NCBI GenBank assembly: GCA_018609965.1
Contig: JAHENP010000246.1
Coordinates: 1 to 5,160, forward strand
From: Haloferacaceae archaeon
GTDB taxonomy: Archaea > Halobacteriota > Halobacteria > Halobacteriales > Haloferacaceae
Direction: 5' to 3'
Length of the DNA: 5,160 nt
Shown here: positions 1 to 5,089 of the stretch, piece after piece
How positions within the stretch are numbered: the first letter of the stretch is position 1
How the letters are laid out: each line of letters opens with the position of its first letter
Notes under the pieces: generated by a model
Seen by the model: only the letters and a program-made list of their open reading frames with translations
Database searches by the model: none
Told to the model about the DNA's origin: nothing
Translations under genes and position numbers: made by a program

Positions 1-1634
1 ATGTCACCCGCCTTCGGCGTTCCCTCGACCTCGTGGCTGGAGCGTGTTGGTGCCGTCGTCCGCTCGAAGTCACTCCCGAACACGACGGGCGCCGTCTGGA
101 CTTTCGTCCCAAGCAGTCTGAACCCACCGTCCCGGAGTTTTCTCGGCCGATCACCGAACGACCGGTCTCGGACCAACTCCTGAGCGATCTTGGTCCGGGC
201 CCGCTCGAACCGACGCGGACGGTACGTGTCCGTCTGGAGATGCTGGAAGAACACCCGGTCGGGGTTGCCAGAGACGAGCAACGCCGTCGTGATACCGACG
301 TGGTCGTACACCGACTCGTCGTCTCTGTCGCCGAGTCCCAGCATCGATGCGTAGTCGGTACCGTCGTCGCTTCGATCCGTGTTGCCGTCGGTCTGACCCG
401 TTTCGTCTCCGGCCGCACTCGTGTCGTCTGTCTCGATCCGTCGCTCGGCGAACAGGTCGTCGACAGCGTCCTCGAACGCACCACCACCGTCGGCCGTCCG
501 AAGATTGCCGAACACCTCCTTGACGAACGTCACGACCGTTTCCGGGTCCAGTTCCGCAGGCAGGCCACGAAGGTACGGCAGCACGTACAGCCGCCGTCCT
601 TCTCCCAGCCGAGTAAAAAACGACTCGAAGATACCGTCGGCGGTCGCCAGTGTCGTCGCGGTCGACAGCGACACGGGTCGTGCTCGCCACGCCGTCGTGC
701 CGTCTTTCGGCACTCCCGGGAAATGTTCACGTTGTTGCTTCGTGTACATTCCCAGCAGTCCGCCAGAGGCACCGGTGACGCGGCCTGTCTCGCCGGTAAC
801 GTACCCCGTCCCCTCGCCGGCGGAGTCGACGTTCATCGACTCCAGTCGGTCGCGCTTCTGTTCGGCCATCACCTCGTTCAACACCGGGAAGTAGCCGGGG
901 GAGCGGTAGCCGTCTGACGACGGTGTCTCGATCTGGACGGTGACGAACAGTTCGTGGTCGGTCTCCTCGTCGTCCGGGTCCAGCGGGCTCGCTGCCCTGG
1001 TTGCGACTTCCCGGAGGTGGTCCTCGTCGTTCCCGAGTTCGCGCAACCCCTCCAACACCCCTGTGTCGCCGTCGTACTCTGCGAGCACGTCGTCGGCCGC
1101 CTCCGAGTGTGCCCACCGCGTGAACCGGTCGACGACATTTGCGGTCCCCCAGGCGTCGTCACGCTCGCCCGCGAGATGGTGTTCGCTCGCGGACTTGTGT
1201 GTCGTCAGCGAGTAGTCGGTCATCGAACTGGTCTTGTTCGTCGGATAGGCGTGGCCGAGTTCGTACCGCTGACTCCGCCCAACCGTCCGGAACTCGACGG
1301 CCTGCCGTTCTTCGATCCCGTCACCGTCCGCCAACTGCGGCGTCTCGCCGGTCAGGTCGACGTTGACGACGAGCGCGTTGTCGGGTTCGTCATAGAGCTC
1401 TCTCTTGGCGTCCGGCGTCATGAGACTGAGATGCTCCGGATTGAGGTCGAAGCCGATCTCGCCGCCGGTGACCGTCTGGTACCAGTCCAGCGTCGCGTAC
1501 TGCACCGCGAGATCGTACAGTGAGGCCACACGCCGGCTCGGGAGTCGTTCCAACGCCTCTGCTGCAACCTCTGTTGGCGACCGCTCGGTGTCGCTCTCGT
1601 CCTGCCGGTCCCTGTCTGGGCGCTCACTCGACAC
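1..1634 (-). CDS. cas8b: Cas8b (haloarchaeal Csh1-type) large subunit of type I-B Cascade, C-terminus off window
   Basis: The reverse strand is open from a GTG at 1632-1634 to the window edge, giving 544 codons with no stop; family members are roughly 700 residues, so the C-terminal quarter is missing. Cas8b is the large subunit of type I-B Cascade and in the family recognises the PAM and helps Cas3 recruitment. Recognisable stretches are the N-terminal helix with SRRVASLYDLAVQYA, the block GRRLYVLPYLRGLPAELDP around residues 340-360, and a low-complexity Asp/Thr/Gly linker around residues 390-425. The GTG start is chosen because a GGAGG lies 6 nt upstream (1641-1645) and it overlaps the cas6 stop by 11 nt, the normal coupling in this operon. 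A segment beginning near residue 277 (GYVTGETGRVTG, then LLGMYTKQQ) sits where many Csh1 proteins carry a CxxC knuckle, but here it has no cysteines. Identification rests on family resemblance plus position directly after cas6. Confidence 0.92.
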   Translation of the reverse strand, partial: MSSERPDRDRQDESDTERSPTEVAAEALERLPSRRVASLYDLAVQYATLDWYQTVTGGEIGFDLNPEHLSLMTPDAKRELYDEPDNALVVNVDLTGETPQLADGDGIEERQAVEFRTVGRSQRYELGHAYPTNKTSSMTDYSLTTHKSASEHHLAGERDDAWGTANVVDRFTRWAHSEAADDVLAEYDGDTGVLEGLRELGNDEDHLREVATRAASPLDPDDEETDHELFVTVQIETPSSDGYRSPGYFPVLNEVMAEQKRDRLESMNVDSAGEGTGYVTGETGRVTGASGGLLGMYTKQQREHFPGVPKDGTTAWRARPVSLSTATTLATADGIFESFFTRLGEGRRLYVLPYLRGLPAELDPETVVTFVKEVFGNLRTADGGGAFEDAVDDLFAERRIETDDTSAAGDETGQTDGNTDRSDDGTDYASMLGLGDRDDESVYDHVGITTALLVSGNPDRVFFQHLQTDTYRPRRFERARTKIAQELVRDRSFGDRPRKLRDGGFRLLGTKVQTAPVVFGSDFERTTAPTRSSHEVEGTPKAGD

Positions 1635-2475
1635 GCTGGGCCTCCGTGGACTCCTCGCTCGTCGCTCGCGACGTGGCGGGTTCTGTCTCGTCTTCGTCGG
1701 GTTTCGGGAGGTTCAGCAGTCCCAACCCGAGACTGTTCCGTTCGCCGACCCCGCAGTCCAGCGCCAGGTTCAGGTGGCGTCGGTGGTGGTCGTCCCGCAC
1801 CGTGTACTCGAAGCGCCACTTGCTCAGGACGTACGTCAGTCGTTTGCGGTCGGTCACGCCGACGGGGACCGCGAACGTCTTCAGCAGGTCGTAGCCGTCG
1901 AACAGGTCCCCCGACCGGTCGCTCGGCCCCGGGAGGTGGTCCGGCGCGTACAGGCCGTGTTTTCGGTCGAGGTTGTTCTCGATCTGGGTGCGGAACGGCT
2001 CCATCGTGTGTTCCGGCCGCCAGTAGACGGCGGTGTCACCGTCTTCCCCCTGCGGGTGGTCGATCCCGTAGTCGGGACACCGCTCTGGCGGGATGCGGAC
2101 GAGCACGCCCGTCCCGGTCTCCAGCGTCCCCTCGCTGCCGGGTTCGCCCACATCCGTCGACAACGGCGCGAGTCGGTCGACGTACAACGGCATCTCGCCG
2201 ACGTTCAGCTCCCGGTCGCGCTGGAGGTCGTCGGCGACGTACGCCAACAGCTCCTCGTCCGGCGAGGCGACCAGCAGGTGCCGGCTGTCACCCGCCGCGG
2301 CGTCCTCCGGCGGGAACGGGTTCGAGAAGACGAACCCCGGCGGCTCACCGTTGTCGTGGCGGTCGTCGTACGGCGTGTCGCGCAACGCCTGCCAGATCCG
2401 CCCGGCCAGTTTTCGATGCCAGTCGTTCTGGTAGGCGTACGCCGCCCGCGCCGACAGTTCGACTAACAGGCGCAT
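1624..2475 (-). CDS. cas6: Cas6 CRISPR repeat endoribonuclease
   Basis: Cas6 cleaves CRISPR precursor RNA inside each repeat and leaves an 8-nt 5' handle on the crRNA (here GTTGAAGC). The 283-residue product has the expected two-part layout. Near the N-terminus, RHDNGEPPGFVFSNPFPP includes His40, at the place of the catalytic His of haloarchaeal Cas6. The C-terminal RAMP glycine-rich loop is CGVGERNSLGLGLLNL at residues 241-256 (Gly242, 244, 250, 252). It ends in an acidic tail typical of halophiles. The ATG at 2473-2475 follows GGAGG (2479-2483) by 3 nt and lies about 50 bp below a TATA-like box, so the gene appears to head its own transcript. It overlaps cas8b downstream. Upstream, 118 bp away, is a mini-CRISPR RNA that Cas6 should also process. 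Confidence 0.95.
   Translation of the reverse strand: MRLLVELSARAAYAYQNDWHRKLAGRIWQALRDTPYDDRHDNGEPPGFVFSNPFPPEDAAAGDSRHLLVASPDEELLAYVADDLQRDRELNVGEMPLYVDRLAPLSTDVGEPGSEGTLETGTGVLVRIPPERCPDYGIDHPQGEDGDTAVYWRPEHTMEPFRTQIENNLDRKHGLYAPDHLPGPSDRSGDLFDGYDLLKTFAVPVGVTDRKRLTYVLSKWRFEYTVRDDHHRRHLNLALDCGVGERNSLGLGLLNLPKPDEDETEPATSRATSEESTEAQRVE
1641..1645 (-). promoter_or_regulatory. Shine-Dalgarno GGAGG of cas8b
   Basis: GGAGG on the minus strand lies 6 nt before the GTG at 1634, inside the 3' end of cas6. It fixes the non-ATG start of cas8b and implies translational coupling with cas6. Confidence 0.8.
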
Positions 2476-2504: not shown

Positions 2505-2545
2505 GACGCTAGGTTGCGAGGGTTCGGGATAAAAGTGTGTGGTAC
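2505..2545 (-). promoter_or_regulatory. Putative promoter of the cas6-cas8b operon
   Basis: On the minus strand CTTTTATC at 2528-2535 is the only AT-rich box in a GC-rich 118-bp gap, about 52 bp before the cas6 ATG. A start about 26 nt downstream (near 2505) would give a leader of about 30 nt that carries the GGAGG. I see no sequence resembling the pseudo-spacer at 2625-2658 around this box, so the mini-CRISPR RNA is not obviously aimed here. Confidence 0.55.
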
Positions 2546-2578: not shown

Positions 2579-2599
2579 CGCCTCTCCCGGCCGGGGGCG
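2579..2599 (-). terminator. GC-rich inverted repeat directly after the mini-CRISPR
   Basis: The self-complementary CCCGGCCGGG (2587-2596) is enclosed by CGCC/GGCG-type ends at 2579-2599. It follows the second pseudo-repeat in the transcript sense and overlaps its decayed 3' end. It could define or protect the 3' end of the small RNA. There is no strong T-run after it, so a terminator role is only a guess. Confidence 0.35.
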
Positions 2600-2686
2600 A
2601 CCCCACAACGGGTTCGTCTGGAACTACTGGTAGCTCGGTCCGTAGCTGGGTACAGCATGCTTCAACCCACAGTGGTTCGGCTGAAC
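2594..2686 (-). ncRNA. CreA/CreR-like CRISPR-derived guide RNA (mini-array psiR1-psiS-psiR2)
   Basis: Three parts are visible in transcript sense. PsiR1 at 2686-2659 (28 nt) is a shortened copy of the array repeat: it begins GTTCAGCCGAACC, ends GTGGGTTGAAGC, and keeps the full 8-nt handle GTTGAAGC and an AACC/GGTT stem with a 6-nt loop. PsiS at 2658-2625 is 34 nt, within the 33-37 nt spacer range of the real array. PsiR2 at 2624-2594 matches the array repeat in its first 25 nt except for one base (GACG for GATG), then decays so that the handle is lost. It starts 9 nt after the stop of the winged-helix gene; a TTTTGA at 2718-2723 inside that gene could be its own TATA box. The same plan (two degenerate repeats around one spacer beside cas6, with a partial match to a nearby promoter) defines CreA antitoxin RNAs and CreR regulators of haloarchaeal type I-B loci. 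PsiS matches 3039-3060 with a TTC motif beside it, so Cas6 processing and Cascade loading are expected, with binding but not cleavage because of the partial pairing. Confidence 0.85.
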
Positions 2687-2695
2687 TACCCAGCA

Positions 2696-3001
2696 TCAGT
2701 CGCTAGTCTGGCCCGCTTCAAAACCCCCTCGGAGGGAGTCGCGACCCTGCTCGGTGACTCGGTAGTGAGCGCTGTCTGGATTTCTTGGAGTGCGACGTCG
2801 TCGGGAACGACGGCGACACAGCAACTTTGGACGCATCTCTCGCCGTTCCACGTAGTTCATTTCCTCCAGTTCGCTGAGCACCGTCTCGGCCTCCTGGCCA
2901 CCAGCGTAATGATTCTCCACCGAGTACTGCGGAACGTAACTGTGAGTGTTGCTCGCGATGCTGTACAGCCTCCCGAGGAGTTCTCTCTGGTTCTCCTCCA
3001 T
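2696..3001 (-). CDS. Small winged-helix-like protein, predicted target of CRISPR-guided repression (CreT position)
   Basis: 101 residues. Residues 4-20 (NQRELLGRLYSIASNTH) and 36-50 (QEAETVLSELEEMNY) look like helices of a winged helix. A Lys/Arg-rich stretch (residues 59-73, with CRRRSRRRR) would be an extended wing, and HYRVTEQGRDSLRGG (79-93) is the usual last strand and helix of MarR/PadR-like archaeal regulators. This suggests a DNA- or nucleic-acid-binding protein; no further family is recognised. Start choice: the ATG lies 23-27 nt below TTTTTATTA (3024-3032) and has no Shine-Dalgarno, the typical leaderless haloarchaeal arrangement. Codon use is less GC-biased than in cas6, and rare AGA/AGG arginines occur early (codons 6 and 11). 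Its promoter overlaps a site matched by the pseudo-spacer of the mini-CRISPR just downstream, which is where the toxin gene creT sits in CreTA modules. It may therefore be a protein toxin or a cas regulator. An acidic alternative frame over 2696-2825 exists, but the wing motif favours this one. Confidence 0.7.
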   Translation of the reverse strand: MEENQRELLGRLYSIASNTHSYVPQYSVENHYAGGQEAETVLSELEEMNYVERREMRPKLLCRRRSRRRRTPRNPDSAHYRVTEQGRDSLRGGFEAGQTSD

Positions 3002-3023
3002 AGAGGGGACGACAGTCTCTGTC

Positions 3024-3032
3024 TAATAAAAA
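3024..3032 (-). promoter_or_regulatory. TATA box of the winged-helix gene (leaderless)
   Basis: TTTTTATTA on the minus strand is centred about 27 bp before the ATG at 3001, so transcription should begin at or next to the start codon. The preceding ACCAACAGA would be the BRE region. Both fall within or next to the predicted guide-RNA target. Confidence 0.8.
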
Positions 3033-3063
3033 TCTGTTGGTCAGTAGGTAGGTATAGCATGAA
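3027..3063 (-). promoter_or_regulatory. Predicted Cascade/guide-RNA target site with TTC PAM over the winged-helix promoter
   Basis: Read on the minus strand, TTC (3063-3061) is followed by ATGCTATACC and TACCTACTGACC. Compared with the pseudo-spacer (ATGCTGTACC, then CAGCTACGGACC), positions 1-5, 7-10, 12, 14-17 and 19-22 match and positions 6, 11, 13 and 18 differ. That is 9 of the first 10 and 18 of the first 22, falling to 4 of the last 12. Positions 6 and 18 are flipped-out positions in type I crRNA pairing. TTC is a known PAM of haloarchaeal I-B systems. A full 34-bp footprint (3060-3027) would cover the BRE and most of the TATA box, so bound Cascade should block TBP/TFB. Confidence 0.85.
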
Positions 3064-3432: not shown

Positions 3433-4026
3433 CTACCGATCACCCCGTCGCGCGAGACTCACCGCGCTGCTCAGATCGCGCCGCACCCGACTCACCGGAC
3501 AGTCGTCGTTGCGACACACCAACACGCCGTCGTCGTGGATCGCACCCCACGCGCCGCAGTCGTGACACTGCCGGCTCGTCGAGCCGGGGTCGACACGCAC
3601 CACGGGCACGCTGGCCTCGCGAGCCTTCTCGACGACCGCCTGCCGCAATGCCGCGGGGAGCCACGCCGCCAGATCGCTCTCACTCCGCCGCGGCCACAGC
3701 GACCCCGGGCGGAGATGTCGATCCGCGAGGACGAGCCGCGGCGCGTCGAACCGCTGGGCGTGTTGGACCGTCCGCGCCGCGGCGCTGTACACCTGCGGTC
3801 GAATCTGGTGGTACATCGCGACGAACAGCTCCGTCTCGCCGCGCGTGGTGTCGAAGTTGGCAGCCTGCAACGCCTGTGTCGCCTCGGCGAGAATCTCCCG
3901 GCGTTCGTGGAGATGTGCGCCGTCGATCACCAACTGCGTGCCGGCACCACCCCGCGGCGGCGCGGCGGCGATCAGCGTCTCGACGCCGACGCTGACGCCG
4001 ATTGGTGTCTCGGAGGCGTCGCTCAT
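3433..4026 (-). CDS. TnpB/IS200-IS605 OrfB-like protein, RuvC plus zinc-ribbon half only, predicted nuclease-dead
   Basis: The 197-residue product resembles the C-terminal half of TnpB transposon nucleases. The RuvC-I strand reads PIGVSVGVETLIAAA (residues 8-22), with Ser12 where TnpB has the catalytic Asp of GIDxG. The RuvC-II strand reads RLVLADRHLRPG (97-108), with Ala101 where the catalytic Glu is expected. The bridging segment ALRQAVVEKAREASVPVVRV leads to DPGSTSRQCHDCG (146-158). The zinc ribbon has Cys154, Cys157, Cys171 and Cys176, and RuvC-III RRDLSSAVSLARR keeps Asp184. So two of three catalytic acids are gone while the metal-binding cysteines remain. The N-terminal recognition/WED part of a roughly 400-residue TnpB is absent, and the frame above the ATG, open to 4216, shows nothing like it and has no alternative start. 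GGAGG (4034-4038), 7 nt before the ATG, and a clean frame suggest an expressed, domesticated protein rather than a random relic. It lies between the CRISPR array and the cas genes. Confidence 0.82.
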   Translation of the reverse strand: MSDASETPIGVSVGVETLIAAAPPRGGAGTQLVIDGAHLHERREILAEATQALQAANFDTTRGETELFVAMYHQIRPQVYSAAARTVQHAQRFDAPRLVLADRHLRPGSLWPRRSESDLAAWLPAALRQAVVEKAREASVPVVRVDPGSTSRQCHDCGAWGAIHDDGVLVCRNDDCPVSRVRRDLSSAVSLARRGDR

Positions 4027-4289: not shown

Positions 4290-4987
4290 AGTCTGATCCC
4301 ACAACGGGTTTATCTGGAACTTGTGACTGGCTGGAATCCACACTGATTAGTCTGGATACTTCAACCCCACAACGGGTTCATCTGAAACCAGAATGTCCTC
4401 CCGAAGCCCGGACGCGGCGGCTTCGCTTCAACCCCACAACGGGTTCATCTGGAACCAGTGTCGTAGGTGTCGGCGCGCTTGTCGATTCGCGCTTCAACCC
4501 CACAACGGGTTCATCTGGAACGGCACGACGACGTGTTGCGCGACCTGTGGAACGCTCGCTTCAACCCCACAACGGGTTCATCTGGAACGCTCCGAGTGTC
4601 CGTCCCGCTCCCGGAGCACAACCTCGCTTCAACCCCACAACGGGTTCATCTGGAACGATCATCGAGTCGGAGGATCATCCCCTGGTTCGACCTTCAACCC
4701 CACAACGGGTTCACCTGGAACTGTGGAGGTGTGTGCTCACGTCTGGCACATGAAGCTTCAACCCCACAACGGGTTCATCTGGAACCTTCTGGTGTAGTAT
4801 GGAAGCCCACGAGGCAACCACGCTTCAACCCCACAACGGGTTCATCTGGAACGCTTCACCCATTGAGTCGACACGGATTTCAACAGTGGCTTCAACCCCA
4901 CAACGGGTTCATCTGGAACGATCCCCGGAGACGATGCTGTTGAACCCACTCCCGGCGCTTCAACCCCACAACGGGTTCATCTGGAAC
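4290..4987 (-). CRISPR. CRISPR array, 11 repeats and 10 spacers, haloarchaeal type I-B repeat
   Basis: The repeat read on the minus strand is 31 nt: GTTCCAGATGAACCC followed by GTTGTGGGGTTGAAGC. It has an AACCC/GGGTT stem with a 6-nt loop and an 8-nt handle GTTGAAGC. Repeats lie at 4957-4987, 4889-4919, 4822-4852, 4755-4785, 4691-4721, 4626-4656, 4558-4588, 4491-4521, 4425-4455, 4358-4388 and 4290-4320. Spacers are 33-37 nt (37, 36, 36, 33, 34, 37, 36, 35, 36 and 37 in that order), all different. Repeat variants: 4691-4721 has one internal change (TCACC for TCATC) plus a different first base, 4358-4388 has TGAAAC for TGGAAC and a different first base, and 4290-4320 is decayed in its first 8 bases with one internal change. 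Decay at the low end places the leader at the high end and transcription on the minus strand, the same direction as cas6-cas8b. Confidence 0.98.
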
Positions 4988-5038: not shown

Positions 5039-5089
5039 GTTTCCGTCGACCCGCAATCACCCCCAAACCCCCGGGGGGTCGACGGAAAC
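5039..5089. repeat. Leader inverted repeat with 14-bp perfect arms
   Basis: GTTTCCGTCGACCC (5039-5052) and GGGTCGACGGAAAC (5076-5089) are exact complements, separated by 23 nt rich in C and G runs. The inner arm boundary is 52 bp from the first repeat. It may be a protein-binding or integration-guiding element of the leader, or an RNA hairpin early in the precursor transcript. Confidence 0.8.

Follow-up and report, generated by a model that had tools for sequence, protein, structure and literature searches.

A CreA-type guide upstream of cas6 very likely represses a protein-coding gene in the toxin slot of a haloarchaeal type I-B CRISPR locus

Next to cas6 in a Haloferacaceae genome there is a small unit in which two degenerate copies of the CRISPR repeat enclose a single spacer-like stretch. 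The question raised by this locus is whether the unit is a stranded piece of an array or a guide that takes Cascade to the promoter of the neighbouring gene. The window, that is the whole stretch of 5,160 nucleotides analysed here, is an entire contig (C246) of a 2.6-Mb assembly that is 74% complete, and carries on its minus strand a CRISPR array, a TnpB-like ORF, an ORF of 101 amino acids, the two-repeat unit, cas6 and the start of cas8b. Our analysis indicates that the unit is very likely a CreA-type guide whose repressed neighbour, in the slot of the toxin, codes for a protein, which makes the module a variant of the CreTA and CrePA systems. The features on which the argument is built are the following:

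4290-4987, minus strand: CRISPR array with 10 good repeats, one degenerate end repeat and 10 spacers
3061-3063, minus strand: TTC, in the PAM position of the target
3039-3060, minus strand: part of the protospacer paired with psiS (18/22)
3027-3038, minus strand: remainder of the protospacer (4/12 matched), including the BRE-like AACAGA and the first part of the TATA-like element
3024-3032, minus strand: TATA-like TTTTTATTA, predicted promoter, about 27 nt before the ATG as read from the sequence
2696-3001, minus strand: orphan ORF of 101 amino acids occupying the toxin slot, with weak winged-helix signals, scoring as coding mainly in its first half
2659-2686, minus strand: psiR1, degenerate repeat of 28 nt with intact handle GTTGAAGC (predicted 5' handle)
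2625-2658, minus strand: psiS, pseudo-spacer of 34 nt (candidate guide)
2594-2624, minus strand: psiR2, degenerate repeat with intact 5' part and lost handle (predicted 3' handle)
2526-2535, minus strand: TATA-like CTTTTATCCC, likely cas6 promoter (predicted), between guide and cas6
1624-2475, minus strand: cas6 (Cas6b, family match at E=2.3e-123)
3-1634, minus strand: cas8b, truncated at the contig end, with the rest on contig C59

The part of cas8b found in the window gives no family match on its own, and the name rests on its position after cas6, on a 193-bp overlap with contig C59 of the same assembly and on the match of the C59 part to Csh1, which falls under the curated cut-off. C59 carries the remainder of cas8b as well as cas7, cas5b and cas3, so that, with cas6 and the start of cas8b in the window, a set of Cascade genes is present. 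The overlap (positions 1-193 of both contigs) has 91% identity, which points to a mixture of strains or to a variable cas8b. In the interval between the array and the cas genes, a 197-aa ORF (3433-4026, minus strand) resembles the C-terminal part of TnpB (Cas12f1-like TNB domain, E=1.6e-07); its RuvC acidic residues look substituted and we take it to be possibly a nuclease-dead remnant. The leader side of the array has a perfect 14-nt inverted repeat with a gap of 23 nt (5039-5089), and the last array spacer (4321-4357) has a second match of 18/22, without PAM, which is its own reverse complement and perhaps forms an array-end hairpin. Contigs C153, C167 and C316 of the assembly contain more arrays or copies of the array repeat.

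The two repeats of the unit have decayed at opposite ends. psiR1 is 3 nt short and its 5' part has decayed, its last 10 nt being those of the array repeat with the 8-nt handle GTTGAAGC within, while psiR2 agrees with the 31-nt array repeat at 26/31 positions overall and at 24/25 over the first 25 nt. Divergent decay of the two repeats is described for creA genes (PMC8501985, PMC9458426), and the anatomy of CreA is found here, with psiS between divergently decayed repeats near the cas genes and both handle parts kept. The description that a model had given from the letters alone (the sequence-only reading), with two degenerate repeats around a 34-nt pseudo-spacer, is thus borne out. An array spacer misread as a guide was rejected, as the unit is located about 1.7 kb off the array and has different repeats. 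Another repeat-like stretch at 2715-2745 (17/31) is at chance level, unrelated sites reaching 19/31. Cas6 would cut the RNA of the unit to about 64-65 nt, with the form GTTGAAGC-psiS-GTTCCAGACG..., and the mature guide RNA would begin GTTGAAGCATGCTG.

When psiS is compared with the minus strand from 3060 to 3039 mismatches appear only at positions 6, 11, 13 and 18, and directly ahead, at 3063-3061, is TTC, the PAM of haloarchaeal type I-B systems (PMC8501985). The agreement at 18/22 positions (9 of the first 10) and the TTC in the PAM position had both been claimed from the sequence and are confirmed, and so is the fading of the pairing past position 22, because only 22 of the 34 nt match over the full psiS. 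Positions 6 and 12 have no part in crRNA pairing (PMC8501985). In a seed test over positions 1-5 and 7-11, 9/10 matched, with position 11 mismatched and further matches at 12, 14-17 and 19-22, so that the single seed mismatch claimed, at position 6, is true of positions 1-10 but no longer when position 11 is included. A footprint over the BRE and the TATA box had also been claimed. The paired 22 nt stop at 3039, beside the BRE-like AACAGA (3038-3033), and the 34-nt protospacer as a whole reaches to 3027, within the TATA-like TTTTTATTA; thus it is the whole complex, not the paired part, that would cover the promoter. With the ATG at 3001, about 27 nt from the TATA centre, a leaderless gene is plausible.

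A chance match between psiS and its target was rejected by shuffling, as the best match of shuffled psiS sequences at the 165 TTC sites was on average 11.3/22 and none of 20,000 reached 18 (1/3,000 did without the PAM demand). The 10 array spacers gave 11-12 matches at TTC sites. Of the 8,798 22-mers that the window has outside the array, six match a TTC site at a distance of over 40 bp with 18 positions, namely psiS itself and five from psiR2, which is similar to the array repeats. The PAM-plus-seed TTCATGCTNTACC is found in the 2.6-Mb assembly at one exact site and at three with one mismatch; with no second exact site in the assembly, targets in trans were rejected.

We have compared the sequence upstream of cas6 in other haloarchaea by two scans. 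The first started from the handle and included 134 loci from the family and the order. The second was handle-free and covered 142 loci, the same 134 and 8 named plasmid loci (two further named loci were omitted as duplicates of L148 and L132, and nine of the 142 upstream stretches are shorter than 900 nt because the contigs end). It accepted a guide start from -260 to -90, a TTC from -1000 to -280 and agreement at positions 1-5 and 7-10, with at least 6/8 handle nucleotides ahead of the guide as a separate filter. This gave 148 pairs in 33 loci, of which 17 had the handle, one each in 17 loci, the window included. Almost all of the 131 TTC pairs that lack the handle (16 loci) come from array repeats, and three, in L031, L150 and L172, look like chance. 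Five control PAMs (GAA, TCC, TTG, ACT and CTT) gave 0 pairs with handle, and 16-107 each when the handle was not demanded. The membership of the CreA class proposed by the sequence-only reading is therefore supported by 17 of 142 loci with the same logic of handle, guide and TTC target.

In the handle-first scan, 14 of 59 ectopic units had a TTC target with a seed of at least 9/10, and under the same rule of seed and TTC the controls gave 4/390 for array spacers and 28/8,980 for shuffled guides. The other 45 units had no matching target under the rule, some of them being arrays with variant repeats, and a looser rule applied to 13 of the ectopic units still left 9 without target. The anatomy of the unit alone is therefore no proof of a guide. 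Among the near cases, the unit of L179 and one of the two of L111 have a 10/10 seed match without TTC, that of L156 has 9/10 without TTC and 8/10 with it, and L152 has two TTC sites with 9/10.

The 17 modules include those of Haloarcula marismortui (L148), Halobacterium hubeiense (L132) and Haloferax mediterranei (L198), the last missed by the handle-first rule and recovered only by the handle-free one; that of Haloarcula hispanica, located between cas6 and cas8b, was not recovered by the cas6-upstream scans. Small RNAs with a crRNA-like handle are known in H. marismortui, H. hubeiense and H. mediterranei (PMC8501985), and creT was described as toxic in H. hubeiense (PMC8501985) as well as in the other two (PMC9458426). 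One related guide is common to five hubeiense-like modules and a second to L185 and L193; that of L183 may be kin to the second, so that there are eleven or twelve distinct guide sequences among the 17. L185 and L193, together with L204 (Haloferax larsenii), have a short interval of 237-264 nt and probably another type of cargo.

Position 11, which was outside the filter, is matched in 16 of the 17 modules, the window being the sole exception, and positions 6 and 12 are matched in 4/17 each, the level of chance. The sequence-only reading had named position 6 as unread in type I pairing, and the class agrees with this; unread positions 6 and 12 with a conserved position 11 are as would be expected for Cascade pairing. 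The window pairs at 17 of the 19 read positions, among the best of the 17 (range 11-18). When nine modules were matched against each other, each guide fitted its own target at 9-10/10 and foreign ones at a mean of 2.9 and a maximum of 7, indicating that guide and promoter change together between modules. The covariation of psiS with the promoter had been put forward as a check, and this comparison addresses it across the class.

Comparison with known Cre systems places the window close to the type I-B CreTA modules of H. marismortui (pNG400) and H. mediterranei. In both, the guide lies about 155 nt before cas6 and the sense strand has, upstream of the gene, a TTC followed by the matched seed, as in the window, and the interval between guide and target, 402 nt here, is 402 nt in H. 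marismortui and 409 nt in H. mediterranei. They also have two degenerate repeats (PMC8501985). However, both have a seed of 10/10, against 9/10 in the window, and a PTxNWxxxGH microprotein ORF in the slot where the window has its 101-aa orphan ORF; the H. marismortui locus in addition has a strongly structured RNA and the window none. CreTA of H. hubeiense is alike in having a creA of two repeats in front of the cas operon, a TTC PAM and an unread position 6 (PMC8501985), but differs in a target on the opposite strand, an interval of 222 nt, a tRNA-sequestering mini-ORF and a total pairing of 12/22 (18/22 in the window). CrePA, as reviewed in PMC12737573, has a CreA guide over a protein-coding gene, like the window, but CreP has a KilA-N domain and acts on FtsZ, and the window protein has no such family match. 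In CreR the effector represses through a crRNA-like guide, as would be the case here (reviews PMC12737573, PMC12948488), but the target is a cas promoter, whereas that of the window appears to be the promoter of another gene, 585 nt before cas6, from which transcripts may read through into cas6. Neither the RNA toxin of CreTA (the stem-loop with consecutive rare codons of H. hispanica and H. hubeiense) nor a KilA-N type toxin as in CrePA was found in the window, and the module, predicted to act in the manner of both, would be best filed as a CRISPR-guided toxin-type variant.

The 101-aa ORF itself has a codon score of 0.108 per codon, above the maximum of 0.077 in 37 null ORFs and below the 0.13-0.36 of the ten training ORFs from same-genus cas loci when left out (cas7 among them was assigned from gene order). 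In blocks of 17 residues, the scores are 0.16-0.57 up to residue 51, negative for the 34 residues after that and near zero in the last block; a separate coding test also favours this frame. A search of 5.8 billion proteins gave one homologue, 97% identical, with 3 substitutions and the ORF still open. The protein is absent from 169 other genomes of the family, from viral contigs and from a scan of GTDB contigs (from which near-identical records were possibly left out); in 392 genomes of the order only the protein itself appeared below E=0.006 among the matches listed, and PDB and PHROGs gave no match.

The eight other modules with a long interval (L131, L144, L145, L148, L155, L175, L183 and L198) all have an ORF of the PTxNWxxxGH type, with S for N in L131 and L183, P-F-D-N-W in L145 and S-H in L155. 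The seven of them that were folded (all but L198) have structured RNA, with z of -2.3 to -5.6 for the best 110-nt window, chosen per locus against 60 shuffles, and the nine relatives folded in all range from -1.7 to -5.6. In the window the best value is -0.78 and the motif, a feature of the present comparison and not a published criterion, is not found. The slot in the window thus probably encodes a protein, perhaps a small one that binds DNA.

The motif P-T-x-N-W-x-x-x-G-H is found between target and guide, about 290-410 nt before cas6, in both known and new CreTA-type loci: L148/L196 (H. marismortui), L198, L131, L144, L145, L155, L156, L161, L163, L175 and L183. The pattern was written from seven loci and found afresh at the same place in L156, L161, L163 and L198. 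The search gave 14 hits, including H. marismortui twice, a far-off one on the minus strand in L149 and one in L165, which is not at a module, and the reversed control gave 2. The microprotein may be the toxin of these modules; we found no mention of the motif in the available text of the CreTA papers (PMC8501985, PMC9458426).

The guide, the target with its PAM, the ORF and the Cascade genes are read directly in the DNA, and the arrangement recurs in other genomes. The mechanism that we infer from them, from promoter activity, transcription and processing to repression and toxicity, would be as follows. Cas6 would process the RNA from 2594-2686, the type I-B Cascade of the cell would load the guide, and the loaded complex would sit on the predicted promoter at 3024-3063 and block transcription of the 101-aa gene, acting as a roadblock without calling Cas3. 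Loss or inhibition of Cascade would then lift the block and allow the small protein to be made, most likely a growth-arresting toxin or an alarm by which such a loss would become costly. We consider it probable that the unit guides Cascade in this way and that loss of Cascade frees a toxin or alarm protein. A protein in a toxin role is preferred because a toxin occupies the same slot in those modules compared here that have been studied by experiment, the tested occupants having proved toxic (PMC8501985, PMC9458426); the toxicity of this protein would follow by analogy of position.

Binding without cutting is suggested by the strong pairing near the PAM that ends after 22 positions, a length that represses in H. 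hispanica. There, with spacers of 21-24 nt, about 9-13% of the target transcript remained in one background and 10-29% in another. The authors considered lengths of up to 24 nt to carry no danger of cleavage; the effect was clearly weaker at 20 nt, cutting persisted at 28-30 nt, and they recall very weak priming by a 24-nt spacer against a virus (PMC10989794). Those spacers were short, fully matched and directed inside a gene, whereas the spacer here has 34 nt and is matched over 22, so we draw the parallel by inference. Against the proposed mechanism stand the mismatch at position 11, the sole case in the 17 modules and within the seed required in H. hubeiense, where a change at any of positions 1-5 or 7-11 abolished repression (PMC8501985), although the total pairing is weaker there than here, and also the psiR1 shorter by 3 nt and an orphan ORF with a poorly coding second half.

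The main rival is that the 101-aa product is a winged-helix transcription factor, under control of the guide, that switches other genes such as a backup defence or cas. Its best Pfam matches are indeed to winged-helix families, PadR (E=0.1) and TrmB (E=0.12), and a haloarchaeal repressor of cas genes is known (PMC11434293). Both matches are far under the cut-off, though, and the protein read in reverse still gives a match to an unrelated family at E=0.18, so close that the winged-helix label is weak; an arginine-rich stretch also matches Circo_capsid at E=0.83. The structure model (pLDDT 54.5) has no confident fold and is too poor for a structure search, and searches of genomes, contigs, proteins, PDB and PHROGs gave no homologue of known role. 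The winged-helix gene of the sequence-only reading is thereby reduced to weak PadR and TrmB signals near noise. We regard a regulator in the slot as rather unlikely, and likewise doubtful is a CRISPR-guarded transcriptional alarm in which Cascade would hold down a DNA-binding protein instead of an RNA toxin. If true, a virus that inhibits or deletes Cascade would make the winged-helix factor appear and reprogramme the cell, and this would be a third cargo of the CreA slot beside the toxic RNA and the KilA-N toxin; among the literature matches listed we found no report of a CreA-type guide over a winged-helix gene.

Autoregulation of the CreR type, a known regulatory type (review PMC12737573), would have the 101-aa gene, guide, cas6 and cas8b on one transcript, with Cascade controlling its own supply. 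All these genes are co-directional and by reading no terminator was seen between guide and cas6. In L111, moreover, a unit with its guide at -318 has a 10/10 seed site 63 nt before cas6, but with TAC for TTC; this is possibly a CreR case or chance. However, between guide and cas6 the window has a TATA-like box, its TTTAT 58 nt upstream of the cas6 start codon, near its place in three same-genus loci (69 nt; the start codon of L052 is uncertain). The targets of the 17 modules lie 348-708 nt before cas6 in a scan that admitted them only beyond -280, and the TTC handle-first scan, with all distances open, gave none nearer than 351. Because cas6 has its own TATA-like box and none of the 17 modules targets there, this reading is less likely than the regulator, and we hold it improbable. 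CreR-type action on a cas promoter, to which the sequence-only reading had likened the guide, is unsupported, the target appearing to be another promoter than that of cas6.

Equally improbable is that the unit is a relic without function now, either a stranded array end or a self-targeting spacer beside a dying gene. The degenerate repeats, the mismatch at position 11, the weakly coding second half of the ORF and its absence from the 169 other family genomes would fit such decay. But only 4/22 positions are mismatched, two of them (6 and 18) on the six-base period, the handle is intact and the ORF has stayed open in the second sequence with its 3 substitutions. Least probable is a tRNA-sequestering RNA toxin in the head of the ORF, with leaderless AUG, rare arginine codons and stem-loop, for although the TATA centre lies about 27 nt from the ATG, codons 6 and 11 are AGA and AGG, a small hairpin exists at 2951-2978 (-11.2 kcal/mol) and the CreTA authors allow rare codons heading a longer ORF (PMC8501985), the hairpin has z of only -1.89, the first 72 nt -1.02 and the best 110-nt window -0.78 against -1.7 to -5.6 in the nine folded relatives, and the mini-ORF was rejected since no two consecutive rare codons (AGA, AGG, ATA, CTA, TTA) occur throughout the ORF.

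If the preferred reading, with a protein gene under a CreA-type guide, is right, the CreA slot before cas6 would be a general socket in which guide and promoter co-evolve and the guarded cargo is swapped. CRISPR-guided repression would then be a regulatory layer with interchangeable outputs and not a single addiction trick. Since the rule of handle, TTC and agreement at positions 1-5 and 7-10, with 6 and 12 free, found 17 modules in 142 loci and none with the five control PAMs, it can serve to survey archaea for such modules and their cargo.
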